A stretch of DNA of 37,180 nucleotides from a virus, in the IMG/VR virus record IMGVR_UViG_3300045303_000020, positions 1 through 37,180 of that record. The stretch is one strand, 5' to 3'. Position 1 is the stretch's first letter; every line of letters starts with the position of its first letter. Of the stretch, positions 2,423 to 37,180 are shown piece by piece. The translations under genes and the position numbers were made by a program. Below the pieces are notes generated by a model. The model was given only the letters and a program-made list of their open reading frames with translations. It was not told the origin of the DNA and did no database searches.

Positions 2423-4588
2423 ATGGGCTGGCAAGACGCTCCGGTCGTCGAGCAGCCGCCGCTGCGCATCGACATCTCGGGCAGCGCGGCCTCGCCGCCG
2501 CCGCAGTCTCAACCGGCGTGGATGAGTGCGCCGGCCGTGCAGGATGCGGCCTCGTTCCAGGAGCCGCCGTCGCTGTTCGAGCGCTTCGGGCACGGCACGA
2601 ACGCCGTCGTGGAAGCCGCCAAGCAACGCTACCTGATGGCGACCGATCCTGCCGCCGCAGAAGCGTACACGCGGAAGATGAACGAGGACGAGGCGTTCTA
2701 CCAGCGCGGGCGGCAGAAGCAGACCGATGCCGAGAACGCCGCGAACCCCGGCCTTGCAATGGTCCGCCAGCGGTACGGCGGGAGCGATATACCGTCCGAA
2801 TTGGGCTCGGCGGCGATGCTCTCGCCGGCGATGCTCCTGCCGGGTGGCCCGGTGGCCGCTGGCATTACGCAAGGCGGCATCGGTGGCTTCTTCCAGCCGA
2901 GCAAAGACGCGTCGTGGTGGGACGTCGCGAAGAATACTGCTGTCGGCGCAGGGATCGGCGGGGTTCTGGGTTCCGCCAGCAGGGGCACTCCGGCGCCGGC
3001 CAGACTCACTCCTGAGCAGCAGGCGCGCGTCGATGCGATGCGGGCGGTCGGGATCGACAATCCGCCGCTGCCGGCGGTCACGCGCTCGCCGCAGGATTGG
3101 TACAACTACGTCGAGCTGGGCAAGAAGGAGGGCCGGGCGAAGGACGTGTACACGACCGCCGAGGAAGGCATCAACAAGACGCTTTCCGAGGTGCTGCCGT
3201 CGCTGGGTGGCGATGCCACTCCGACGCTGACGGGCGTGCTTCCGACGCTGCGCACGAAGCCGGCAACGCCCTACGCCAACGCGGAGCAGGCGCGGCAGTC
3301 GGTGGCTGCGTACGAGGCCGACGCGCGCAACGTCGCGAGCGGCACTTATGAAGCGGCAGCGAAGGCGCCAGGGTCGGAAGCGTCATTCCCCGCCGAGCCG
3401 TTCTTCAAGCGCATCGAGTCTGTCGTCAATGACTTCGAGGACGCGATCCCTGGCGCGGTGATGACCCGGCTGCGCCAGTTGAAGGCCGGCATGGACATGT
3501 CGCGCGGCGTCGAAACGCCCGGCACGGTCCCGCGCGACTTCACGATCGCGGAAGCGACGAAGCTCTACCAGCTCATCAACGACCGCATGAGCACTGGACC
3601 GGCGGCAGCCGCCGGGCGCGCGATGAAGAGCGCCCTGGCCGACGTGGGTGAAAGCGCCGCGGGTCCGACGGTGCCGCAAGCCGGCAACGTGGCGATGCAG
3701 CTCTTCAAGGACGCCACCTCGCAATGGCGGACGATGAAGCAGACGCTTGAGCCCGCGCCGCTGGCGAAGCTCGCCGATACTGCGGAAGCGCATCCTGACT
3801 TCTACCCGCGGCTGTTCACGTCGGGCAAGCCGGAAGAGATCGTCGCACTGCGGAAGTTTCTGCAGGAGAACAATCCGGCCGCGGCCAGCGGAATGCGTGA
3901 CGCGTTGCTGGGTCACTTGCAGGACGCGGCCACCAAGAGCGGCAGTTTCGACGCCTTTGCGATGAACGATGCGATCAAGCGCGTCGGTTCGGAGCGCCTG
4001 GCGGCGGTACTTGATGCGCAGGAGATCGGGCATCTGACAGCACTGGTGCAGACCGGGATGCGCGAGTCGGTACTTAACTCGCTGCGCTCGGCGGCGATGC
4101 AACAGAACGGTCGCTTCTCCGGCGTGATGCTCGGCAGGGCAATGGACCGCATCGGTCCCGAGCGTTTGCGTGCCGTGCTGTCGCCGGCCGATCTGGCGAC
4201 GCTGCAGAATCTGCGCGTTGCATCGCACGCGCTCACGGTCGAGCCCAATCTCGCGAACGTCAACCGCTCCAACACCGGCTCGACACTCGGCAACATGCTG
4301 CAGCGCTTCCACGTAGGGCCGATGGCGGGTGCCGGGCTCGGTGCGCTGTTCGGGCCGCACACGGGGCTGCCGCAGTTCGTGCCGGAGATGGCGGGGGCAG
4401 CTCTTGGCGCGATCGGCGAGCGATTCGGAGCCAACGCGGCCGGGCGCCGGATGCAGGGCATGGTCAATCCCGATCTGCAGGCGCTAGCGCGCTCGCAACA
4501 ACCGCAGGCGTCGATGCTTGCGCAACTGCTGACGCAACAGCGCACGCCGATGCAACGCGCGTTGCCGATGCTGGGGCTGGGTTTCTAG
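2423..4588 (+). CDS. Predicted internal virion/ejection protein, 721 aa
   Basis: No catalytic motif is recognised. The protein begins with a Pro/Ala-rich segment, then has a hydrophobic Gly/Ala-rich stretch at about residues 130-190 and a long helical, Ala/Arg/Leu-rich middle. Near the C-terminus (about 630-670) there is a second Gly/Ala hydrophobic stretch (GPMAGAGLGALFGPH...). Such amphipathic regions are common in podovirus proteins that are ejected with DNA and form a trans-envelope channel. It is the largest protein after the portal and sits directly before the tail fibre array. Function is inferred from size, composition and place. Confidence 0.6.
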   Translation: MGWQDAPVVEQPPLRIDISGSAASPPPQSQPAWMSAPAVQDAASFQEPPSLFERFGHGTNAVVEAAKQRYLMATDPAAAEAYTRKMNEDEAFYQRGRQKQTDAENAANPGLAMVRQRYGGSDIPSELGSAAMLSPAMLLPGGPVAAGITQGGIGGFFQPSKDASWWDVAKNTAVGAGIGGVLGSASRGTPAPARLTPEQQARVDAMRAVGIDNPPLPAVTRSPQDWYNYVELGKKEGRAKDVYTTAEEGINKTLSEVLPSLGGDATPTLTGVLPTLRTKPATPYANAEQARQSVAAYEADARNVASGTYEAAAKAPGSEASFPAEPFFKRIESVVNDFEDAIPGAVMTRLRQLKAGMDMSRGVETPGTVPRDFTIAEATKLYQLINDRMSTGPAAAAGRAMKSALADVGESAAGPTVPQAGNVAMQLFKDATSQWRTMKQTLEPAPLAKLADTAEAHPDFYPRLFTSGKPEEIVALRKFLQENNPAAASGMRDALLGHLQDAATKSGSFDAFAMNDAIKRVGSERLAAVLDAQEIGHLTALVQTGMRESVLNSLRSAAMQQNGRFSGVMLGRAMDRIGPERLRAVLSPADLATLQNLRVASHALTVEPNLANVNRSNTGSTLGNMLQRFHVGPMAGAGLGALFGPHTGLPQFVPEMAGAALGAIGERFGANAAGRRMQGMVNPDLQALARSQQPQASMLAQLLTQQRTPMQRALPMLGLGF

Positions 4589-11214: not shown

Positions 11215-12180
11215 TCACAGCCGGCGCTTGAGCGTTGGCGCGTTGATCGTGCGCAGCCGCTTGATGTACCGGTCGCTCATTTTCTTCGACGTGTGGCCGA
11301 GCATCGCCTGGTAGTCCAGCCCTTCCTCTTCGGCCGTGGTCGCCGACATCCCGCGGATGTCGTGGAAGCGAGTATCGCGCTCGACGCTGGCGGCATCGCG
11401 AGCGGTCGCGAACGCTTCCTGCAGGCGCCGGCCGGTGATCGGGCGACCCTTGTCCGTCGAAACCACGAACAGCCCCACGATCGGGATGCGCTTCGCGGCC
11501 TCTAAAACGGCGCGCAGCGGGGGCGTGATCTCGAAAGCCTGCCGTGCCCCAGTCTTAACTTGGACGACGCTCAGGCGCTCGCCCACTGCCGCCCAGCGCA
11601 GCCCGAGCACGTCGCTCTCGCGCATGCTCGTGAGGTAGGCTAGATCCATCGCGATCTGCAGCCAGCGCGGCGAGATCTCGCGGATGCGCCGGAACTCGTC
11701 GTCGGTGATTCGTCGGCCGCGCGGCGTCGTTTCGTTGAAGTTGACGTGCTCGGCCTCGTTCGTCGTCACCCATCCCCACTCGCCGCCGATCCGGTACGCG
11801 ACGCGGAGCAGCGATAGACAGCCATTGAACCAGCCGCGCTTCACCCTGCCGCTGTCACGCCATCGCGCGATGGCGAAACGGCTCAGGTCGTCGGCGGGGA
11901 GGGTGCCGAACTCGGCGTCGATAGTGCGGCTGTAATCGGCGTAGCGGTTGCGCGTGCTCTTAGCGTAGTCCGCCATGCAATCGTCGAGATAGCGGTGGAC
12001 CAGATCAGCGACGGTGACGTGTGGCGGAAGGCACTCCAATTCGGCCCACAATCGTAGCGCTCGCGCCTTGACCTTCCCGAGGTTGTGCCACTTGCCGTCG
12101 GCGCTGACGTAGTAAAAGGTCGACCCCCGCAGGTACATCCGTGGGGGGAGATCGAGATTCTTGGTGCGGCGACGACCCAT
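11215..12180 (-). CDS. int: Tyrosine-family site-specific integrase, 321 aa
   Basis: This enzyme integrates the phage chromosome at attB. From ATG 12180 the catalytic set is visible: Arg187 (in LTSMRESD), Lys209 (QVKTG), His273-x-x-Arg276 (HDIR), His296 (LGHTS) and Tyr305 (DRYIK). The N-terminus MGRRRTKNLDLPPRMYLRG is the arm-binding start seen in integrases paired with DUF4224 proteins, so 12180 is preferred to an upstream in-frame start at 12258. A core-binding SAM-like domain spans about residues 55-145. The gene is the last of the left operon, as int is in lambda. Confidence 0.95.
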   Translation of the reverse strand: MGRRRTKNLDLPPRMYLRGSTFYYVSADGKWHNLGKVKARALRLWAELECLPPHVTVADLVHRYLDDCMADYAKSTRNRYADYSRTIDAEFGTLPADDLSRFAIARWRDSGRVKRGWFNGCLSLLRVAYRIGGEWGWVTTNEAEHVNFNETTPRGRRITDDEFRRIREISPRWLQIAMDLAYLTSMRESDVLGLRWAAVGERLSVVQVKTGARQAFEITPPLRAVLEAAKRIPIVGLFVVSTDKGRPITGRRLQEAFATARDAASVERDTRFHDIRGMSATTAEEEGLDYQAMLGHTSKKMSDRYIKRLRTINAPTLKRRL

Positions 12181-12334
12181 GAATCGCTTCGAGTGCGGAG
12201 CGGAGCACTTTAGGCCGACCGGAGCCGGATTGAAAGTAGGGTATTCCATAGCGGTCAAACCACTCCCTCTGCTTGCTGGCTCTTACCTTGCCGGTTAGGT
12301 CAGCCACTTCCTCGGGCGAAAGCCACTGATTCAT
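12005..12334 (-). CDS. DUF4224 protein, possible excisionase-type partner of the integrase
   Basis: MNQWLSPEEVADLTGKVRA, then a REWFDRYGIPYF segment and RPKVLRSALEAIHG form a complete DUF4224 domain in the first 50 residues. These small DNA-binding-like proteins stand directly upstream of integrases in many proteobacterial phages, so a role in integration/excision control is likely. Family members normally stop at or near the integrase ATG; here the frame stays open for a further 176 nt in another frame inside int, giving 109 residues. The tail from about residue 52 is out-of-frame integrase coding. Start ATG 12334 overlaps the previous stop (ATGA). Confidence 0.75.
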   Translation of the reverse strand: MNQWLSPEEVADLTGKVRASKQREWFDRYGIPYFQSGSGRPKVLRSALEAIHGSSPHQESRSPPTDVPAGVDLLLRQRRRQVAQPREGQGASATIVGRIGVPSATRHRR

Positions 12335-13844: not shown

Positions 13845-14035
13845 GTGATCCTCCCGGCCGCATACAGCGCCAACTGAACGCGATTGCTGTAGCCGTTGCC
13901 GAGCTTCGCGCGGATCATCTTCGCGTGCGCCTTGACCGTGCTGACGCTTAGTCCGAGATCGCGGGCGATGGCCTTGTCAGGCAGGCCCGAGCCGATGCCG
14001 GTCAGCACGGCGCGTTCGCGTGGGGTGAGGTTCAT
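13841..14035 (-). CDS. Solo LuxR/GerE-type HTH protein, 64 aa
   Basis: The whole protein is a GerE helix-turn-helix: LTPRERAVLTGIGSGLPDKA, then IARDLGLSVSTVKAHAKMIRAKL. No receiver or autoinducer domain is present. LuxR family members use this unit to bind DNA as dimers. Such a short, isolated form inside a recombination operon may act as a small transcription regulator of phage or host genes. Start ATG 14035 is in an ATGA overlap with the ninB-like gene. Confidence 0.85.
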   Translation of the reverse strand: MNLTPRERAVLTGIGSGLPDKAIARDLGLSVSTVKAHAKMIRAKLGNGYSNRVQLALYAAGRIT

Positions 14036-14427
14036 GCGGCCAACTCCAAGCCGAGATTGCTGGCGACGTATGCCTCGATCTTGTTCAGGTACTCGGTGAA
14101 CTCGGCAACGTCGAGCGTCGTCGTGCTTACCGGCACGAGTTCGCCGCTCGGCGTCGGGATCTTCGGTAGGAATTGGCTGCCGAACTCGTGATGCCAGGCG
14201 TCGCGGCTGAATTGCTTGCCATCGACCCATGCGTTATCCGCGATCTCTTCGAGTCGCTTCCAGTAGAGATTGTTTTGCGGGATGGACCGCTGCGACTTGT
14301 ACTCGGTCACTTCCACCGACAGCGGCTTACCGTTGTCGGCGCAGGCTTGCCAGTTCGCGCCGATGAAGCCGAGCAACTGCCGGAAGTGGCCTTCCTGCCG
14401 CAAGATGAAGTGTCGACGCAGATTCAT
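14032..14427 (-). CDS. ninB: NinB/Orf-family recombination mediator, 131 aa
   Basis: The segment EVTEYKSQRSIPQNNLYWKR, followed by LEEIADNAWVDGKQFSRDAWHHEF, is the hallmark of the NinB family. In lambda, NinB (Orf) helps load recombinase on SSB-coated single-stranded DNA and can substitute for RecFOR. Length is close to the 146 residues of lambda NinB. It stands directly after the exonuclease and annealing protein genes, so the three likely form one recombination system. Start ATG 14427 overlaps the exonuclease stop (ATGA). Confidence 0.88.
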   Translation of the reverse strand: MNLRRHFILRQEGHFRQLLGFIGANWQACADNGKPLSVEVTEYKSQRSIPQNNLYWKRLEEIADNAWVDGKQFSRDAWHHEFGSQFLPKIPTPSGELVPVSTTTLDVAEFTEYLNKIEAYVASNLGLELAA

Positions 14428-15194
14428 GCGGCCTCGCGCATCATCGGGCGGTGCCCGGTCTGACACTGCCAGAAGCATAAAAGGGCGTCGAACATGGCGA
14501 GCCCGCGCGTGAGGTCGACCTCCGGCACTTCCAGCAGGACGGACAGGCCCGGCACGGTGGTCGACACGAACACGATCGCGCAGCGCGCCGCCGGCACCCG
14601 CAAGCCGCGCCGGTACGCCGCGAGCTGCATCGGATGCTCGTCCCATAATTTCGGCAGAGTGGCGGCGGTGAATTCCTTGCTCTTGTAATCGATTACCCAT
14701 GCGTCGGAGTGCAAGTCGCATTTGCCGCCGTAGCCGGCCGGGTGCGCGAACGAACGCTCCGGCAGCCACTGCTGCTCGCCGCACCAGTCGGTGATCTCCT
14801 GGCGGGCGCCCTTGACGTGCGCGAACAGGTCGGGGTCGGGCATCTCGCCGCGGTAGTGGCGCTCGAGGGCGCCATGAATGCTCTCGCCGCGCTCGCGTGC
14901 CTTGCGCGCCTGTTCCTGCGCGTCGAGGCGCACGCGGGCGAGCCACGCGTCTTCCGTCTCGCCGATGATCCGCGGCAGCGTCAGGCCGGCCATCAGCAAC
15001 TGCTCGGCCATCCAGCGGTTGAGCGCCGGCCGGTCGGCGCAGCGCATGACGGTCGTAACGGACGGGACGAGCCCGAGCTTGCGCGCGTCGGCCAGGGTGG
15101 CATTGCGCTCCTTGCCGTTGCGGCCGATCACCGTATAGGCGGGCGTGCCGTCGAGCTTGTACCAGTGGCCGGTGGACGTTGCGAAGTCGTTCAT
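14424..15194 (-). CDS. PD-(D/E)XK exonuclease (RecB/Cas4-like), 256 aa
   Basis: Motifs in order are GESIHGALERH (about residues 103-113, His107), GGKCD (Asp160), VIDYKSK (Asp169, Lys171) and QLAAYRRG (Gln190-Tyr194). They form a complete PD-(D/E)XK nuclease core as in lambda-type exonucleases and RecB-like phage nucleases. The likely role is 5'-to-3' resection giving single strands for the annealing protein encoded just upstream. Start ATG 15194 follows a GAGAGG site. Confidence 0.88.
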   Translation of the reverse strand: MNDFATSTGHWYKLDGTPAYTVIGRNGKERNATLADARKLGLVPSVTTVMRCADRPALNRWMAEQLLMAGLTLPRIIGETEDAWLARVRLDAQEQARKARERGESIHGALERHYRGEMPDPDLFAHVKGARQEITDWCGEQQWLPERSFAHPAGYGGKCDLHSDAWVIDYKSKEFTAATLPKLWDEHPMQLAAYRRGLRVPAARCAIVFVSTTVPGLSVLLEVPEVDLTRGLAMFDALLCFWQCQTGHRPMMREAA

Positions 15195-15844
15195 GCTGCC
15201 TCTCTCGGGAATTTCGCCGCAAGCTCGATGCCCTTCGCCTTGATGCGCTTGTGCGCCTCGACGTCGCCGCCCTGCTGCGCGATGGCGAGCGCCTTCTCCA
15301 GGCGCTGGCGCAGATCGTCGATGCTCGTTGCTTCGTCGAGAGACGCGATAAGATCTGCCTCGGCACTCGGATCGAGGCCGTTAGTCGCGGGTTCGCCCTC
15401 GACGCCGTTCGCCTCGGGTTCGTCCGGCGCGCGCGGCACGTCTTCGCCGGCGTAGATGTACAGCCCGAGCCCGTGCAGCGCGATCGCCTTGACGAGACAG
15501 CGCTGCATCGCCGTGTTGACCGCGAAGGCATCGGGCGCCGCAATGGCCTGGTTGCGGTGATTCATCACGGGCAGATGCATCGTGCGCGGCTTGCCGAACG
15601 CTGTCACGGTGCAGACGACTTGCATCGTCTCGCCGAACATGCGCGGCTCGCCGTATTCCCACTTGGCATCCGGGTCGCGGCGCAGCAGTTGGTCGACCGC
15701 CCACGCCCACGACAGGTACTTGAGGGTGCCCTTCTTCTCGACGTACTTGCCGACGTCGATCGCGGCGAGTTCGGTGAAGTGGTTCTTCGCTTCCATCTGC
15801 TGCTGCTCCTCTTGTTGCTGTTGGTGGCCGAGATCGGTGTCCAT
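15191..15844 (-). CDS. Single-strand annealing protein of the Sak/DUF1071 family
   Basis: HFTELAAIDVGKYVEKKGTL followed by KYLSWAWAVDQLLRR is the diagnostic start of the DUF1071/Sak annealing proteins, which pair complementary single strands. The C-terminal 80 residues form an acidic linker and a helical tail (DLRQRLEKALAIAQQ). Start choice is open. ATG 15844 sits in a TGATG overlap but has a poor ribosome site and adds a Gln/Glu-rich leader. ATG 15796 has AGAGGAG 9 nt upstream and matches the family N-terminus. The partner exonuclease and NinB follow. Confidence 0.87.
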   Translation of the reverse strand: MDTDLGHQQQQEEQQQMEAKNHFTELAAIDVGKYVEKKGTLKYLSWAWAVDQLLRRDPDAKWEYGEPRMFGETMQVVCTVTAFGKPRTMHLPVMNHRNQAIAAPDAFAVNTAMQRCLVKAIALHGLGLYIYAGEDVPRAPDEPEANGVEGEPATNGLDPSAEADLIASLDEATSIDDLRQRLEKALAIAQQGGDVEAHKRIKAKGIELAAKFPREAA

Positions 15845-16035
15845 CAACGGAACCATCCGAAACAGAGGCCGAGCACGATGAACCCGGCGATGCCGGTCAT
15901 CACGGTGCAGAGCACAAAGCCGCCGATGCGCTCGAAGCGGTGCGAGACGAACACCGGATCGCGCGGCAGTTGCCGACGGAACGCGTAGTGGTCGGGGTTG
16001 TAGTCCGCCTGGCTGGAGATGTCGGAGCGGTTCAT
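15844..16035 (-). CDS. Small single-span membrane protein, 63 aa
   Basis: The polar N-terminal 35 residues (NRSDISSQADYNPDHYAFRR and on) are followed by one membrane helix (GGFVLCTVMTGIAGFIVLGL) and a short FGWFR end. The orientation is probably N-in. The family is not recognised. It overlaps both neighbours in the left operon. A membrane protein next to recombination genes may be a superinfection or host-interaction factor, but nothing in the sequence decides this. Confidence 0.68.
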   Translation of the reverse strand: MNRSDISSQADYNPDHYAFRRQLPRDPVFVSHRFERIGGFVLCTVMTGIAGFIVLGLCFGWFR

Positions 16036-16217
16036 GCTGAAACCGGCTCGCGGCGGTAGATGGCGAGCGCGTCACTGATGCCATCGCGCTTGCCGGCTAT
16101 GTGGGCGAGCGCGATGACCGTCTCGACGTCCGTCCGGTTCGCGGCGTCGATTGGCACAACCAAATTGACCAGCTCCATGAAGGCGGCGTCGTCGGTGAGT
16201 TCGTTCGGCAGTTTCAC
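16032..16217 (-). CDS. Hypothetical early protein, 61 aa, GTG start
   Basis: A GGAGGA site 6 nt upstream makes GTG 16217 the best start (V-K-L-P-N-E-L); an earlier in-frame GTG at 16256 overlaps the previous gene without a ribosome site. The product is a small mixed-charge helical protein (AFMELVNLVVPIDAANRTDV). The family is not recognised. Its end overlaps the membrane protein start (ATGA). Confidence 0.62.
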   Translation of the reverse strand: MKLPNELTDDAAFMELVNLVVPIDAANRTDVETVIALAHIAGKRDGISDALAIYRREPVSA

Positions 16218-18677: not shown

Positions 18678-19102
18678 CGCACTGGACGCAGGAGCAGCTC
18701 GACGCCTACAAGGCCCGCGCCGCGGCGCCTGACGAGCATTGCGTGCTGCTCGCGCCGGTCGCTGCGCTACCCACGCCCGAATCCGCGGTCCTGAAGGCCG
18801 TTCTCGACGTGCTGCGGCTGCATCGCGGCGTGGCCTGGTGCGCGCGCATGAACTCAGGGCGCTTTCAGATCGAGGGCCGGTGGGTGCAGGCGTCGTTCAA
18901 GGGTTGCGCGGACATCCTCGGGCAGCTCACCGACGGGCGACTGCTCGCGATCGAATGCAAGTCGGACAAGGGCAAGACGACGGACGAGCAGGCCGCGTTC
19001 CTGCGGCACGTTCGCGACAACCACGGCATCGCATTCGTCGCAAGATCGGTCGACGACGTGATGGTCAACCTGTCTGCAGTGCTCGCCGGCGAGGCCGCGT
19101 GA
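18674..19102 (+). CDS. VRR-NUC-type nuclease, 142 aa
   Basis: The motif set Asp80 (KGCADILG), Glu94 and Lys96 (LLAIECKSDKGKT), with TTDEQAAFL following, is the VRR-NUC variant of the PD-(D/E)XK fold. Stand-alone phage VRR-NUC proteins act on branched DNA and may resolve replication or recombination intermediates. The N-terminal 35 residues are outside the core domain. The start is GTG 18674 (GTGA overlap), and the end overlaps the PP-loop gene in the same way. Confidence 0.85.
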   Translation: MTHWTQEQLDAYKARAAAPDEHCVLLAPVAALPTPESAVLKAVLDVLRLHRGVAWCARMNSGRFQIEGRWVQASFKGCADILGQLTDGRLLAIECKSDKGKTTDEQAAFLRHVRDNHGIAFVARSVDDVMVNLSAVLAGEAA

Positions 19103-19956
19103 ATCCATTCCGCATCGACGGGCCGGTCGCGTTCAGCGGCGGGCGGACGTCGGGTTACATGCTGCACGAAATCCTTCGCGCGCATCAATGGGTGCTGCCG
19201 GATGACGTCGTGCCGGTGTTCTGCAACACGGGGAAAGAGCACGACGCCACGCTCGACTTCGTGCAGGCGTGCGCGACGCACTGGTGCGTGCCGATTCGCT
19301 GGGTCGAGTATCGCAGCGCGAAGGTGCCGGTCGACCGTTGGCGCGAGGTCGACTATGCAACGGCCTCGCGCAATGGCGAGCCGTTCGAGGCGGCGATTCG
19401 GGCGACTAAGGGCTATCTTCCGAACCCCGTCAATCGCTACTGCACGGTCGAGCTAAAGATCCGCGCATCGCAGCGTTTCGCCGAATCAGACGTCGGAGGG
19501 ATGGTCGATGGACACACCCGCGTCGTCGGTCTTCGCGCGGATGAGCCGGGGCGCGTCAGCAAGGCCCGCGCGCGCGAATTGACCGGTAAGGACGGCGGTC
19601 GCCTTGATCTCGCCTTCCCGTTGTATGACGCCGGCCGCACGGTTGCCGATGTCACGGCGTTCTGGAAACGGCAGTCGTTCGACCTCGGCCTGCCGAACGT
19701 CAACGGCACGACGCCGCTCGGGAATTGCGACCTGTGTTTCCTCAAGGGCGCCGGCAAGCTTGCCTCGATCATCGCCGCGGAGCCGGAACGCGCGATCTGG
19801 TGGGCGAAGATGGAAAACCTAGCGGCACAAACGAGTGAGTCACCGTTGGGTGGTGTCTTTCGCAAGGACCGGCCCAGCTACGCCGCCATGCTGGCGCAGG
19901 GCAATCTGCGCTACGACGACGCGCCGGACACGATCGACTGCGCGTGTACCGACTGA
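19099..19956 (+). CDS. PAPS reductase-like PP-loop enzyme, 285 aa
   Basis: SGGRTS at residues 13-18 is the PP-loop (SGGxxS) that binds the alpha-phosphate of an adenylated substrate; Arg replaces the more usual Lys. FCNTGKEHDATLDF is the second conserved segment. Further on, NRYCTVELK (Cys115), HTRVVGLRADEP and GNCDLCFLKG (Cys210, Cys213) recur in phage PAPS reductase-like proteins. It lies in the early operon beside a nuclease and is clearly different from the virion-module enzyme. Reaction and substrate are unknown; nucleic-acid modification or anti-defence roles are possible. Confidence 0.85.
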   Translation: MNPFRIDGPVAFSGGRTSGYMLHEILRAHQWVLPDDVVPVFCNTGKEHDATLDFVQACATHWCVPIRWVEYRSAKVPVDRWREVDYATASRNGEPFEAAIRATKGYLPNPVNRYCTVELKIRASQRFAESDVGGMVDGHTRVVGLRADEPGRVSKARARELTGKDGGRLDLAFPLYDAGRTVADVTAFWKRQSFDLGLPNVNGTTPLGNCDLCFLKGAGKLASIIAAEPERAIWWAKMENLAAQTSESPLGGVFRKDRPSYAAMLAQGNLRYDDAPDTIDCACTD

Positions 19957-32070: not shown

Positions 32071-33303
32071 ATGGCTTATCAATTCGCTCCGGGAGCGCAG
32101 AACAGTCTGGTCAACGGCCAATATGTGAACAGCGATCCGAGCCAGATGAACAGTGCGGTGATGGGGAGCTTTAATCCGAATCAGGGTGGCCTCGGCCAGG
32201 CGGGGTATTCGTCCGATCCTCTGGCGAATTACGTCGACCCGGCCGGAGTCGCGGCACGGCAAGCCGCTGCGCAAAACGCAAGCTTTTCCAATTCGTTCGG
32301 TCCCGGTATGCAGCAGAAGTCGGCGGTGCAGTCACCGGGCGGCAGCAGCGGCGGGATGAGCGGCAAGGGCGGGGCGCAATCAATGGCCGCGCCGAACAGC
32401 GGCAGTCCCGGTGCCGGGCCGGGGGCGAGCGGCAAGGGTGGTGCGCAGTCGATGCCCGCGCCGAGCGCGCAGAACAGTCTCGCCGGCGGCAAGGCGGCGA
32501 GTTACGGGCCGGGCATGTGGGGGCAGAGCGCGAACGGTGGCCTGATGTTCGGCCTCGGCGGGCAGCCGCCGCCGGGGTGGAATGCGGCGAACATTCAGGG
32601 TGGCCCGCTGCCGGGGCAGCAGGCTGCTACGCCGCCGGGTGTGCCGATTCCGCCGGGCTGGGCGACAGGGCTGCCGGGGCAGTCTCCGAACATGCCGGGC
32701 GCGCCGAATGGTTCCGCACCGCCGGGGTGGAATAGCACGCTGACGCCGGGTACGCAGACGGCTGCGCCGGTCATTCCGCCGAAGACGCCGGTGGGCGGTG
32801 TGACGCCGAATCCGCCCGGCGGGTCGATGGCGAGCGGTGTGACGAGTGCGCCGGGCAGCAACGGCCCGCCAGCCGGTGCTGGAACAGCGACGGCGCCGAA
32901 GTCGGCCGTGCAGGGTGCGCCGTCCGCTGGTGGCCTGTCGTTCGGTGGTTCCGGCACGCAGCCGTATGCGACGGCGTTCTCGACGGCGACGCAGTCGCAG
33001 ACGCCGGCGGGGCAGTCGTTCCTCGCCAACCTGTCGAAGTACGGCGCGGGTGCGGCGGCGAATTACCTCGGCTCGCCGCAATCGTTCTCGGTCAACGACT
33101 TCAACAAGGCCGCGGGGGCGAATCCGGCACTCGCAACGCAGATGCTCGCCGCCGGCGGGCAGCAGTATCGGGATGCGGTGGCGAAAGCGAACGGTTGGTC
33201 GCCCGCGCAGATGAACCAGTTCATCAACACGAACGGCTCGGGGCAACTCTCCGGCTTCACGCCGCAGGCGCTCGCGCAACTGAAGGGGCTCGGGGTCGGC
33301 TGA
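32071..33303 (+). CDS. Gly/Pro-rich virion protein, 410 aa
   Basis: The first 280 residues are almost all low complexity: Gly, Pro, Ser and Ala with GKGGAQSM repeats and PPGW repeats (GQPPPGWNAANIQG, PIPPGWATG, SAPPGWNSTL). The last 110 residues (about 300-410) are more regular and helical (NDFNKAAGANPALATQMLAA). This suggests a long flexible arm on a small folded domain, possibly a tail accessory or ejected protein. No family is recognised. Confidence 0.62.
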   Translation: MAYQFAPGAQNSLVNGQYVNSDPSQMNSAVMGSFNPNQGGLGQAGYSSDPLANYVDPAGVAARQAAAQNASFSNSFGPGMQQKSAVQSPGGSSGGMSGKGGAQSMAAPNSGSPGAGPGASGKGGAQSMPAPSAQNSLAGGKAASYGPGMWGQSANGGLMFGLGGQPPPGWNAANIQGGPLPGQQAATPPGVPIPPGWATGLPGQSPNMPGAPNGSAPPGWNSTLTPGTQTAAPVIPPKTPVGGVTPNPPGGSMASGVTSAPGSNGPPAGAGTATAPKSAVQGAPSAGGLSFGGSGTQPYATAFSTATQSQTPAGQSFLANLSKYGAGAAANYLGSPQSFSVNDFNKAAGANPALATQMLAAGGQQYRDAVAKANGWSPAQMNQFINTNGSGQLSGFTPQALAQLKGLGVG

Positions 33304-34862
33304 TGCGCCAACGTCCGGCGCGCTCGCAGACCGCTGCCACATTGGCGCTCGCTGCGCCGATCGGCGGCTGGAACGCGCGCGACGCGCTGGCGCTGATGGC
33401 GCCGACGGATGCGATCCAGCTCGACAACTGGTTCCCGCGGCCGGATCGGCTCGAGGTTCGCAAGGGCGCCTCGCAGTGGGCGACCGGGCTCGGTGGTTCG
33501 GTCGACACGCTCGCCGCGTATGCGAGCCCGACGACGCGCAAGCTGCTGGCGGCAGCGAACGGCAAGATTTTCGATGCAACGAGCGCCGGGGCCATCGGTG
33601 CCGCGCTGGGAACGGGCTTCACGTCGAATCAGTGGCAGACGGCGATGATGACGACGCCGGGGGGGTCATTCCTGCTGCTGTTCAACGGGGTCGACACGCC
33701 GCAGAAGTTCGATGGCACGACACTCAGTGCAAACACGATCACTGGAACGGGACTCACGGCGACGAATCTGGTGCAGGCGACGGTGTACCGCTCGCGGGTG
33801 TTCATCGTCGAGAAGACTTCGCTGAACGTCTGGTATCTCGCGGTCAACGCGATCGCCGGCGCAGCGAGCGTGCTCAATCTGGGCCAGTTCTGCAAGCTCG
33901 GCGGATCGATTCAGGCGGTCGGGACGTGGACGGTCGACGGCGGCGATCAGGGCAGCGACGACATCCTCGTGGCGGTGACGTCAGAGGGCGAGATCCTGAT
34001 GTTCAACGGCGTCGATCCATCGAGCGCGACGTCGTGGCGGATGATCGGCATCTTCCGTTGTGCAAAGCCGATCGGCCGGCGCTGCACGTTGAAGTTCGGC
34101 GCGGATCTGATCCTGCTCCTGCAGGACGGGAGCTACGAGGCATCGCGCATTCTGCAGCAGTCGGTCGAGTCGCCGGCGCTGTCGCTGTCGGACAAGATTC
34201 GCAGCGCGTTTGCCGATGCCGCTGCGCTGTACGGCGCGACGGCGGCGAATCCGCTCGGGGTCTTTGGGTGGGATGTCATTTATTACCCCAATGGGCAGCG
34301 GCTGATCGTCAACGTGCCGCAGGACACGACGGGCACCGTGTACGTGCAGTACGTGATGAACAGCATCTCGCGCGCGTGGTGCCGGTTCACCGGCTGGAGC
34401 TCGCGGTCGTGGGCGCTGTTCAACTCGACGCCGTTCTTCGGCGATGCGAACGGGGTGGTGTGGCAGTCGGACATCGGCACGCGGGATAACCTGATCCTGG
34501 TGTCATCCGCTGCCAAGCAGGCGTTTACCGACCTGTCGATGCCGGGGAGGATCAAGCATCTGACGTTGATCCGGCCGAAGTTCAGCAGCAACGGCGCGCC
34601 GCAAGTTGGGATCAGTGTTGACGTCGACTTCGCGGATCGGCCGTATCCGGTGCCTACACAGTTGCCGGGCTCGAACGGCTCGCCGTGGGACATCTCGCCG
34701 TGGAACGTCACGCCGTGGGGCATCGGTGAGCGCGTGCTGGGACCGTGGGTGACGTTGGGTGGTTTGGGTACGGTGATCGCGCTGAAGGTGAATTCGCTGA
34801 CGCGCTCGACGTTGGCGTGGTTCCAGACGGACTTCGTCGCGGAGCCTGGGGGAATTCTCTAG
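33303..34862 (+). CDS. Tail hub/DNA-stabilisation protein, P22 gp10-like, 519 aa
   Basis: The start ATGCGCC at 33303 overlaps the previous stop (TGATG). Beginning with APIGGWNARDALALMAPTDA and IQLDNWFPRPDRLEVRKG, the sequence resembles podovirus proteins of the gp10/packaged DNA stabilisation group. It is then beta-propeller-like, with LLAAANGKIFDATSAG, GSFLLLFNGVDTPQKF and VIYYPNGQRLIVNVP blades. It likely seals the DNA after packaging and forms the tail tube base. Confidence 0.78.
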   Translation: MRQRPARSQTAATLALAAPIGGWNARDALALMAPTDAIQLDNWFPRPDRLEVRKGASQWATGLGGSVDTLAAYASPTTRKLLAAANGKIFDATSAGAIGAALGTGFTSNQWQTAMMTTPGGSFLLLFNGVDTPQKFDGTTLSANTITGTGLTATNLVQATVYRSRVFIVEKTSLNVWYLAVNAIAGAASVLNLGQFCKLGGSIQAVGTWTVDGGDQGSDDILVAVTSEGEILMFNGVDPSSATSWRMIGIFRCAKPIGRRCTLKFGADLILLLQDGSYEASRILQQSVESPALSLSDKIRSAFADAAALYGATAANPLGVFGWDVIYYPNGQRLIVNVPQDTTGTVYVQYVMNSISRAWCRFTGWSSRSWALFNSTPFFGDANGVVWQSDIGTRDNLILVSSAAKQAFTDLSMPGRIKHLTLIRPKFSSNGAPQVGISVDVDFADRPYPVPTQLPGSNGSPWDISPWNVTPWGIGERVLGPWVTLGGLGTVIALKVNSLTRSTLAWFQTDFVAEPGGIL

Positions 34863-35326
34863 TGAGCTGGGTCTGCGTCGATCAGCGCGTTGCCGAAGCC
34901 GTCGGGATTCCTTGGGCGATGGAACGCGTGCGGCTACGTTTCCCGTGGAACAAGCCGACAGCGATCATGCTCATCGACGGCGATCGTTTGCGCGCGGTGG
35001 TCGCGTATTCCGACTACACCGGGCAGGCGGTGTCGATGCACGTCGCGTCCGATGGGTCGAGGCATTGCACGCGCGCGTTCCTGCGCGTCTGCTTCCGCTA
35101 TCCGTTTGAACAACTCAAGGTGCTGCGCGTGACGGGGCTGATCGCGGCCTCGAATGCGGCCTCGCTGCGGCTCGCCTTGCATCTCGGATTCAGGATCGAA
35201 GGGCGTTTGCGCGAGGCTGCCGACGACGGCGGTGATCAGCTTGTGGTGGGCATGTTGCATCGCGAGTGTCGCTATCTAAACCAAGGACCGAAACATGGAC
35301 AGCGGCTCACCGCCTGCATCGCCTGA
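34862..35326 (+). CDS. GNAT-family acetyltransferase, 154 aa
   Basis: The C-terminal half (LKVLRVTGLIAASNAASLRL, ALHLGFRIEGRLREAADDGG, then LVVGMLHRECRYL) is the typical end of GNAT acetyltransferases, with the N-A-x-S-x-x-L-x-x-x-x-G-F helix. Similar GNAT genes occur in the tail region of several podoviruses, where they may modify virion or host proteins. The gene starts with GTG 34862 and overlaps the next gene by 32 nt. The acetyl acceptor is unknown. Confidence 0.82.
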   Translation: MSWVCVDQRVAEAVGIPWAMERVRLRFPWNKPTAIMLIDGDRLRAVVAYSDYTGQAVSMHVASDGSRHCTRAFLRVCFRYPFEQLKVLRVTGLIAASNAASLRLALHLGFRIEGRLREAADDGGDQLVVGMLHRECRYLNQGPKHGQRLTACIA

Positions 35327-36542
35327 TCCGACGCTGGCCGCGGATCAGCAGATTCGCGTCAACCAGGCGACGATCGATCAACTGACGAACGCGAATCGGG
35401 CGAATCAGGTCGGCCCGACCGGCTCGCAGACGTGGACGAAAGATCCGACCACGGGGCAGTGGACGCAGACGACGACACTCGATCCGGCGATCCAGCAGCA
35501 GTTGCAGCAGCAGATCATCAACACCGACATCGGGCTCGGCACGCAGGGCAACGCGATGGCGCGGTTGCTCAACAGCAACTATGCCGGCGGGCAGTTGGAT
35601 ATGTCGGGACTGCCGCAGGGGTACGGCGGCACGAGTCTGCCGCGCTCGCCGCTGGTGACGGGGCTCGATACCGGCACGTTGCCGGGGCTGCAAACCGGAG
35701 TCGCTTCGGCTGATCCGCTGACGCAACTGGACAAGTCGAAGGTGGGCGACATCCAGAACGCCGTCGCGGGTGCGGGTGGAACGCAGGGCTATCTCGATCA
35801 GGCGCAGCAGGCCGTGTACGGGCAGATGGCGTCGCGGCTCGATCCGCAGTTCAACCAGGCCGAAGAGGTGATGAAGTCGCAGCTTGCCGATCAGGGCATT
35901 CCGCAGAACAGCGAAGCCTGGAATCGTGCAATGGACGACTTCCACCGGCAAAAGACGGATGCCTACCAGAGTGCGAATAACGCAGCGGTGGGTGCGGGCA
36001 ACGCGCTGCAGAACCAGTTATTCGGCCAACGGGTGACGGCGGGACAGTTCGGCAACAGTGCGCAGGCGCAGGCATTCGAGCAGGCGCTCGGCAGCGGGCA
36101 ATTCACCAACAGCGCACTGGGGCAACTGTTCCAGCAGGGGCTCGCGTCGGGGCAGTTCGGCAACGCGGCGCAGAACCAAGCGTTCCAGCAGTTGTTGGCG
36201 AAGGCTGGATTCACGAATAGCGCGATTGGGCAGGACTTCTCGCAGGCGCTGCAGCAGGGGCAGTTCGGCAATCAGTCGCGGCAGCAGGCGCTCAATGAGC
36301 AGATAACGCAGCGGCAGGAGCCAATCAACGAGGTGAACGCGCTGAAGGGCGGTCAGGTGATGGCGCCGACGTTCGGTGCGACGGATCAGGTTGCAGGGCC
36401 GGCGGGTGCGCCGAATATCGGGCAGTTGCAGAACAATGCCTATCAGGGGCAGTTGAACGCCTACAACGCGCAAGTCGGGTCGGACAACGCGACGACGGGC
36501 GCGATCGGTAGCGTGATCGGCATGGCGCTGATGGCCTTCTGA
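35295..36542 (+). CDS. Gln-rich virion protein with five 18-residue repeats, 415 aa
   Basis: AAGGA 7 nt before ATG 35295 supports a start inside the GNAT gene. The N-terminal 80 residues are Gln/Thr-rich; a helical middle follows; residues 250-339 hold five repeats of about 18 residues (GQFGNSAQAQAFEQALGS, GQFTNSALGQLFQQGLAS and so on). The C-terminus is a hydrophobic Gly/Ala/Met stretch (GAIGSVIGMALMAF). Helical repeats and a membrane-active end fit an internal protein ejected with DNA. No named family was recognised. Confidence 0.68.
   Translation: MDSGSPPASPDPTLAADQQIRVNQATIDQLTNANRANQVGPTGSQTWTKDPTTGQWTQTTTLDPAIQQQLQQQIINTDIGLGTQGNAMARLLNSNYAGGQLDMSGLPQGYGGTSLPRSPLVTGLDTGTLPGLQTGVASADPLTQLDKSKVGDIQNAVAGAGGTQGYLDQAQQAVYGQMASRLDPQFNQAEEVMKSQLADQGIPQNSEAWNRAMDDFHRQKTDAYQSANNAAVGAGNALQNQLFGQRVTAGQFGNSAQAQAFEQALGSGQFTNSALGQLFQQGLASGQFGNAAQNQAFQQLLAKAGFTNSAIGQDFSQALQQGQFGNQSRQQALNEQITQRQEPINEVNALKGGQVMAPTFGATDQVAGPAGAPNIGQLQNNAYQGQLNAYNAQVGSDNATTGAIGSVIGMALMAF
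36042..36311 (+). repeat. Five tandem 18-codon repeats within the Gln-rich virion gene
   Basis: Units of 54 nt begin at 36042, 36096, 36150, 36204 and 36258. The shared protein pattern is G-Q-F-x-N-x-A-x-x-Q-x-F-x-Q-x-L. DNA copies have diverged, so the conservation is at protein level. The fifth copy is degenerate. Confidence 0.8.
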
Positions 36543-36543
36543 C

Positions 36544-36813
36544 ATGCCTAATCTATTCGCCAGACCGGCAGGAATGCCGCCCGCGCCGATCGACGACTAC
36601 TCGATGCAGGCGCAGGGGACGCAGCCGGGCGCGCCAATCGACGATCGCAGCACGCCGGCCTCGCCAATGGATGCGCAGCGCCAGCAGATGCAGTTGCAGA
36701 TGCTGGGGCAGATGCTGATGCGCGCGACGCAGGGAGGCCGACCGCAGATGCCGCTGCAATCGCAGTCGCAAGACCTCCAGTTCCCGCAAACGATGGGCAT
36801 GGCGCGACGCTGA
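36544..36813 (+). CDS. Small Gln/Met/Pro-rich protein, 89 aa
   Basis: The protein is disordered at the N-terminus (two P-I-D-D segments in a Pro-rich context), followed by a Met/Gln helix (QRQQMQLQMLGQMLMRATQG) and a Gln-rich tail. No family is recognised. It starts 1 nt after the previous stop and ends in TGATG with the PP-loop gene. It may be a virion accessory protein or a chaperone of the preceding protein. Confidence 0.62.
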   Translation: MPNLFARPAGMPPAPIDDYSMQAQGTQPGAPIDDRSTPASPMDAQRQQMQLQMLGQMLMRATQGGRPQMPLQSQSQDLQFPQTMGMARR

Positions 36814-37180
36814 TGGACAGCCTGTTCGCCCGGCACAAGAGCGCCGTCCTGCAGTTCAGCGGCGGCAAGGATTCGCTTGCCTGCCTGCATCTGCTGCGAC
36901 CGTGGTGGGATCAGTTCACGGTGTTGTGGTGCGACACGGGAGACTCGTTTCCCGAGACGCGGCGGCAGATGGACGTGGTGCTCGCGCTGGTGCCGCACTT
37001 CCTCGCGATCCGCAGCAATCAGCCGGCGCAGATCGAGGAAAACGGTCCGCCGTCGGACCTGTTGCCGGTGTGGGATTCGCCGCTCGGGCGGCAGATGGAT
37101 TCGTCGCGCACGCGGCGCGTGCAGACGCCGTTTTCCTGCTGCAGCACGAACATCTGGGAACCGATGGGGCAAGCGGTACG
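36813..37180 (+). CDS. PP-loop PAPS/APS reductase-like enzyme, N-terminal part (continues at position 1)
   Basis: The gene starts in TGATG at 36813 and runs off the window; the last 127 bases are already repeated at 1-127, so the gene continues at base 1 and ends at 491. The PP-loop SGGKDS is at residues 16-21 in AVLQFSGGKDSLACLHLL, followed by LWCDTGDSFPETRRQMD, the second superfamily motif. In the complete 243-residue protein a CC and a CxxC pair follow. It lies among virion genes, which is unusual for this enzyme family. The biological substrate is not known. Confidence 0.88.
   Translation, partial: MDSLFARHKSAVLQFSGGKDSLACLHLLRPWWDQFTVLWCDTGDSFPETRRQMDVVLALVPHFLAIRSNQPAQIEENGPPSDLLPVWDSPLGRQMDSSRTRRVQTPFSCCSTNIWEPMGQAV
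37054..37180. repeat. Terminal direct repeat, right copy (circular overlap)
   Basis: This copy is identical to bases 1-127. Removing one copy gives a 37,053-bp circle with an uninterrupted gene across the junction. Confidence 0.93.

Follow-up and report, generated by a model that had tools for sequence, protein, structure and literature searches.

A PP-loop protein with four invariant cysteines, encoded in a late slot among phage virion genes and related to phage "PAPS reductases"

The split gene and its late neighbourhood

The window analysed here is the whole 37,180-nucleotide stretch of IMG/VR record IMGVR_UViG_3300045303_000020. Its bases 37054-37180 are an identical copy of bases 1-127, and because of this 127-bp direct end repeat the contig is read as circular and the gene at its end as whole. 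Joined across the ends (36813-37180 plus 128-491, + strand), this gene of the PP-loop/PAPS_reduct family begins with an ATG at 36813, ends with a TAA at 489-491 and encodes a product of 243 aa, codons 1 to 123 lying in the 5' part (36813-37180) and the remainder in the 3' part (128-491). The split is thus a linearisation artefact accounted for by the repeat, and an assembly artefact is ruled out as its cause. The joined protein carries the motifs of the first-pass annotation exactly: a PP-loop, SGGKDS, of the intact ATP-pyrophosphatase type at residues 16-21 (36858-36875, +), Cys109-Cys110 (37137-37142, and also 84-89 in the repeat copy, +) and Cys191-Met-Thr-Cys194 (330-341, +), the two cysteine pairs being proposed Fe-S ligands. 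The sole further cysteines are C24 and C40.

The genes around it all lie on the + strand. Upstream are a head-closure/stabilisation-type gene (33195-34862; PHROG 5107, where it is labelled amidase), a GNAT-family acyltransferase (34745-35326; PHROG 4470, 41% identical to BcepIL02 gp65), a virion structural protein in the position of gp66 (35295-36542; PHROG 6121, E 9e-39) and a small ORF of 89 aa (36544-36813), whose stop overlaps the PP-loop ATG by 1 nt. The gp66-position protein has no direct BLAST similarity to BcepIL02 gp66. As listed, with a GTG at 34745, the GNAT ORF overlaps the gene before it by about 118 nt (34745-34862); the match to the family sets in at about residue 55, and so the true start is probably internal, downstream of 34745. 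Directly after the TAA of the PP-loop gene, an ATG at 492 opens a late gene of 642 aa (492-2420), an ejection or virion protein by position and with no family match, followed by a large late gene of 721 aa (2423-4588), likewise an ejection or virion protein by position, to which related loci show weak similarity.

The lineage of the window and the Lessieviruses share one gene order: head closure, GNAT, virion protein, PP-loop, virion protein. The ctyzp037 lineage has the same slot, but what stands there in place of the GNAT was not identified as one. The PP-loop start overlaps the upstream virion gene, or lies within 30 nt of it, in 37 of 45 loci. The flanking genes are of virion type, as judged from PHROG 6121 and from the neighbours of the gene in phage JC1 that were detected by mass spectrometry (MS; see below). 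The position in a late virion block, as originally described, is real and is kept in dozens of phages. The accompanying remark that the gene does not lie in an early operon needs one correction: the early region of this phage does encode a second, different PP-loop protein.

That second protein (19099-19956, +), a member of the phage "PAPS reductase" group, is encoded beside a VRR-NUC-like gene; it matches PHROG 424 (E 4e-42) and is SspD-like (E 3e-12), with the motifs SGGRTS, RYCT and CDLC and a C-terminal CAC. Homology between the early and late proteins was considered and set aside, as the profile score was of no use (E 1.5) and the two cannot be aligned by profile. Elsewhere in the window are an integrase (11215-12258, -), a Sak-type annealing protein (15191-16084, -) and a NinB domain (14032-15543, -), from which we conclude that the phage is probably temperate. 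The gp66-like virion proteins encoded upstream of the PP-loop gene (for example L041:7153-7983, L067:7126-7968 and L020:7156-7989, in three related loci) often start with MCCD[AS]P or MG[KG], and often have a hydrophobic tail rich in Gly and Ala at their end (such as GTIAGAGIMAF); these termini look as if they could be modification or membrane sites.

Family membership, conservation and residence time

The window protein matches Pfam PAPS_reduct (E 7e-15) and PHROG 424 (E 1.5e-24). Among GenBank phages the gene was found in 10 records, namely Burkholderia Lessieviruses, ctyzp037 and Aeromonas phage phiA008, and identity to the Lessievirus proteins is 44-45% over 93-95% of the protein. In BcepIL02, CSP3 and JC1 the gene bears the annotation "PAPS reductase" and has a GNAT and virion genes for neighbours. 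Both sequence clade and slot place the window gene in this Lessievirus-type phage PP-loop family. Neither the gene nor its position is new, as both were described earlier in the Lessieviruses as a sulfate-assimilation moron, "PAPS reductase"; the family is known in phages yet uncharacterised, and the window gene adds a further member. A chromosomal PP-loop gene with phage head-closure and virion neighbours in a Limnohabitans genome (L090, 9368-10714) is a prophage copy.

Scanning IMG/VR with a profile brought up 313 relatives, and the 80 best were retained. All four columns, Cys109, Cys110, Cys191 and Cys194, are invariant in 50/50 aligned relatives, as is an intact SGG[KR]DS loop, while C24 (37/50) and C40 (12/50) are variable. 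Loss of the four cysteines among homologues had been named beforehand as an outcome that would speak against the cysteine site, and every aligned relative retains them. The patterns used to recruit these relatives included the PP-loop and the CxxC, and two less biased sets were therefore also examined. Relatives recruited by the PP-loop pattern alone kept the CC in 26/26 cases. PP-loop genes recruited through the neighbouring head-closure gene had CC in 46/46 and CxxC in 46/46 (DCxxC in 43, variants in 3), with SGG.DS in 45/46. The spacing from CC to CxxC is 77-89 across the phage family. Such invariance rules out a chance motif and supports the view that the four-cysteine CC...CxxC site most likely holds a [4Fe-4S] cluster. 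The intact SGGxDS on an alpha-hydrolase-like fold makes the protein a PP-loop ATP pyrophosphatase by class, with a predicted activity of ATP to AMP plus PPi.

How long has the gene resided in this slot? Presence and absence were counted on contigs with BLAST-based slot calling, some of the contigs being near-copies, and were scored on the Lessievirus-type head-closure gene, the alignment of the window-type head-closure protein being too diverse for scanning; single-sequence scans of viral contigs returned 3 relatives for the window PP-loop protein and 0 for its head-closure protein. Of 63 phages that carry a Lessievirus-type head-closure gene and have a slot that could be scored, 46 possess the PP-loop gene and 17 do not, and the head-closure tree shows 6 changes between presence and absence. 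Most of the phages that lack it have flanking genes that touch or overlap across the slot, and in the genomes of this kind that were searched whole (9/9) no other PAPS_reduct match was found. Absence also occurs in the window's own lineage, where neither a Bradyrhizobium phage nor ctMlz233, whose capsid protein is 72% identical, has a PP-loop gene in the slot; both show the order GNAT, structural protein, next gene.

PP-loop distances follow head-closure distances closely (Mantel r 0.79, with 0/5000 permutations as high), a correlation that rules out recent separate acquisition by each phage for most of them. Together with the absences in relatives, it indicates a gene that has long been resident in a fixed late slot but is dispensable there. 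The GNAT gene is the more conserved of the two, present in 17/17 phages without the PP-loop gene and in 40/46 with it; with these counts, the idea that the GNAT depends on the PP-loop protein is rejected.

Fold and the reductase question

The AlphaFold2 model of the window protein is a confident one (pLDDT 96.4, pTM 0.91) and ends in a long C-terminal helix. In the PDB, its top fold matches belong to CysH reductases (E about 1e-7, TM 0.5-0.66), the APS reductase 2goy among them; after these come TtuA, GMP synthetase, ATP sulfurylase, LarE and QueC, PP-loop enzymes that use ATP. When the protein is aligned freely with four bona fide APS reductases, CC falls on CC and CxxC on CxxC, so that the earlier description of a [4Fe-4S] APS reductase-type cysteine arrangement holds column for column.

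The name "APS reductase" itself is not supported. The catalytic ECG[LI]H tail with its C-terminal Cys occurs in 0/50 phage family members, and only 6/50 have any cysteine C-terminal to the CxxC. An adenylating loop replaces the reductase loop: E. coli CysH has SSSFGIQ where the phage family has SGG[KR]DS, and SGGKDS was not found in the four aligned APS reductases. The lysine of CCxxRK and later arginines of those enzymes are unconserved in the phage family. Against the NCBIfam model for phosphoadenylyl-sulfate reductase (CysH, PRK02090) the window protein scores 44.3 bits, the cut-off being 154, and against TIGR02055 (APS reductase) 24.7 bits, the cut-off being 235.3. The phage protein thus has a CysH-like scaffold, yet fails tests that help to define the APS/PAPS reductase family.

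Its best-scoring cellular relatives are archaeal (Methanothrix, Methanosarcina, Thermococcus and others), with a few bacterial fusion proteins, all with SGGKDS and CC/CxxC; most of them score E 1e-20 to 1e-10 against the phage profile. Lower scores are given by E. coli CysH and APS reductases (E 4e-9 to 2e-6) and by CysD (E 3e-5), and TtcA (E 0.2) has no useful sequence similarity. On a quick tree of 214 columns the phage PP-loop proteins form one clade (support 99), which joins the archaeal group with weak support (87) and lies apart from CysH (92). M. jannaschii homologues belonging to the archaeal SGGKDS-type group have been reported to reduce APS/PAPS (PMC6286981, PMC10322725), and an intact loop therefore does not prove adenylation; a reductase function without the ECGLH tail is possible for the phage protein.

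Possible activities and known systems

The reading that we favour, with confidence that is middling, is of an AMP-forming Fe-S PP-loop enzyme (an N-type ATP pyrophosphatase of CysH-like fold) that is made late and acts in the cell. It would be translated with the late structural operon, SGGKDS would bind ATP, and a substrate would be activated as an AMP adduct. The cluster pocket might then deliver or position a small nucleophile, which could be sulfide, as with enzymes of the TtuA type, or some other group. The enzyme would act in the infected cell during late infection and not as a virion component, and its product would presumably be a modified macromolecule or a small molecule rather than sulfite. 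Activation at SGGKDS with cluster-assisted transfer is proposed by analogy with TtuA, in which the Ser and Asp of the PP-loop are needed for substrate adenylation and the cluster, held by three cysteines with one iron left open, delivers the sulfur (PMC7138817). The analogy is weakened because the phage site has four ligands instead of three and no sulfur donor is visible; the window ORFs that were scanned yielded no cysteine desulfurase, no sulfur carrier and no Dnd/Ssp partner.

The main rival, a possible but rather doubtful one, takes the protein for an APS/PAPS reductase that serves assimilation and belongs to the archaeal type (SGGKDS, CC/CxxC); its gene would then be an auxiliary metabolic one, giving sulfite or sulfide late in infection or to the lysogen. 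The Pfam PAPS_reduct and NCBIfam phosphoadenylyl-sulfate reductase matches, the CysH fold matches including 2goy, the reducing activity reported for M. jannaschii members of the nearest cellular group and the published moron annotation all point this way. It has to contend with an NCBIfam score far below the cut-off (44 bits against 154), with the absence of the catalytic C-terminal Cys and the unconserved CCxxRK lysine and later arginines, and with a fixed late slot among virion genes that is odd for sulfate assimilation. Nucleic-acid modification in late infection, by phosphorothioation of phage DNA or thiolation of tRNA, would be a special case of the AMP-forming enzyme, and we consider it unlikely. 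A weak whole-domain match to SspD (E 7e-5, 20.8 bits) and a loop match to BrxP (E 1e-6), both PP-loop proteins of DNA-modification or defence systems, are in its favour together with the fold matches to tRNA thiolases; yet the window ORFs scanned include no Ssp or Dnd partner, DndC gave no match at E <= 1, and of the two PP-loop proteins the early-region one is by far the closer match to SspD (E 3e-12). An equally improbable variant has the enzyme placing an AMP-activated mark (thiolation, or a Cap9-like conjugation of the QueC family) on an adjacently encoded late phage protein; if so, the phage particles would carry a previously unknown chemical mark from a virus-encoded Fe-S enzyme.

Carriage in the virion, one of the roles first suggested, would have the PP-loop protein enter the next host with the ejection proteins. 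The gene does sit between genes with orthologues that were found in JC1 virions: MS of CsCl-purified JC1 particles detected gp64, gp67 and gp68 (PMC9144972). The list of virion proteins from that study includes neither gp65, the PP-loop orthologue, nor gp63, the GNAT (PMC9144972), which argues against particle carriage, though it is no proof; the BcepIL02 record also calls the flanking genes, and not the PP-loop gene, virion-associated. We regard a virion component as very unlikely, and retain the AMP-forming enzyme acting in the cell.

It is common to count phage "cysH/PAPS reductase" genes among the auxiliary genes of sulfur metabolism. Because this large subfamily is without the catalytic cysteine and has its ATP-activating loop intact, the label alone should not pass for evidence of viral sulfate assimilation. 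Among the papers searched, none dealt with misannotation of phage PAPS reductases. The fixed late slot, the four invariant cysteines and the clean natural absence from some relatives make the question testable in cultivable phages (JC1, BcepIL02, CSP3).

Four known systems invite comparison. The "PAPS reductase" moron of the Lessieviruses (BcepIL02 gp67, JC1 gp65, DC1, BcepMigl, CSP3) has the same CC, CxxC and SGGKDS and the matching slot after a GNAT and a virion gene, whereas the window phage is of another lineage, a 37-kb phage with an Mx8-like capsid protein, and direct BLAST detects no similarity between the neighbouring virion proteins of the two. The assimilatory [4Fe-4S] APS reductase (CysH, TIGR02055; 2GOY) shares the fold and the aligned CC and CxxC, and the phage protein differs from it in lacking the ECGLH tail and several charged residues common to the reductases, and in having an intact adenylating PP-loop and an extra C-terminal helix. 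The archaeal SGGKDS-type putative APS/PAPS reductases (NF010368/PRK13795 and PRK08576 groups) also combine an intact SGGKDS with CC and CxxC, but the majority are fusion proteins (430-830 aa) that carry additional domains, cysteine-rich or of other kinds, and the phage proteins make a clade of their own. Finally, the Fe-S tRNA thiolases TtuA and TtcA likewise join an SGGKDS-type ATP-pyrophosphatase domain to a cysteine cluster site (for TtuA, PMC7138817), and TtuA is similar in fold; it has three cluster cysteines, in contrast to the four that the phage protein has in common with APS reductase.
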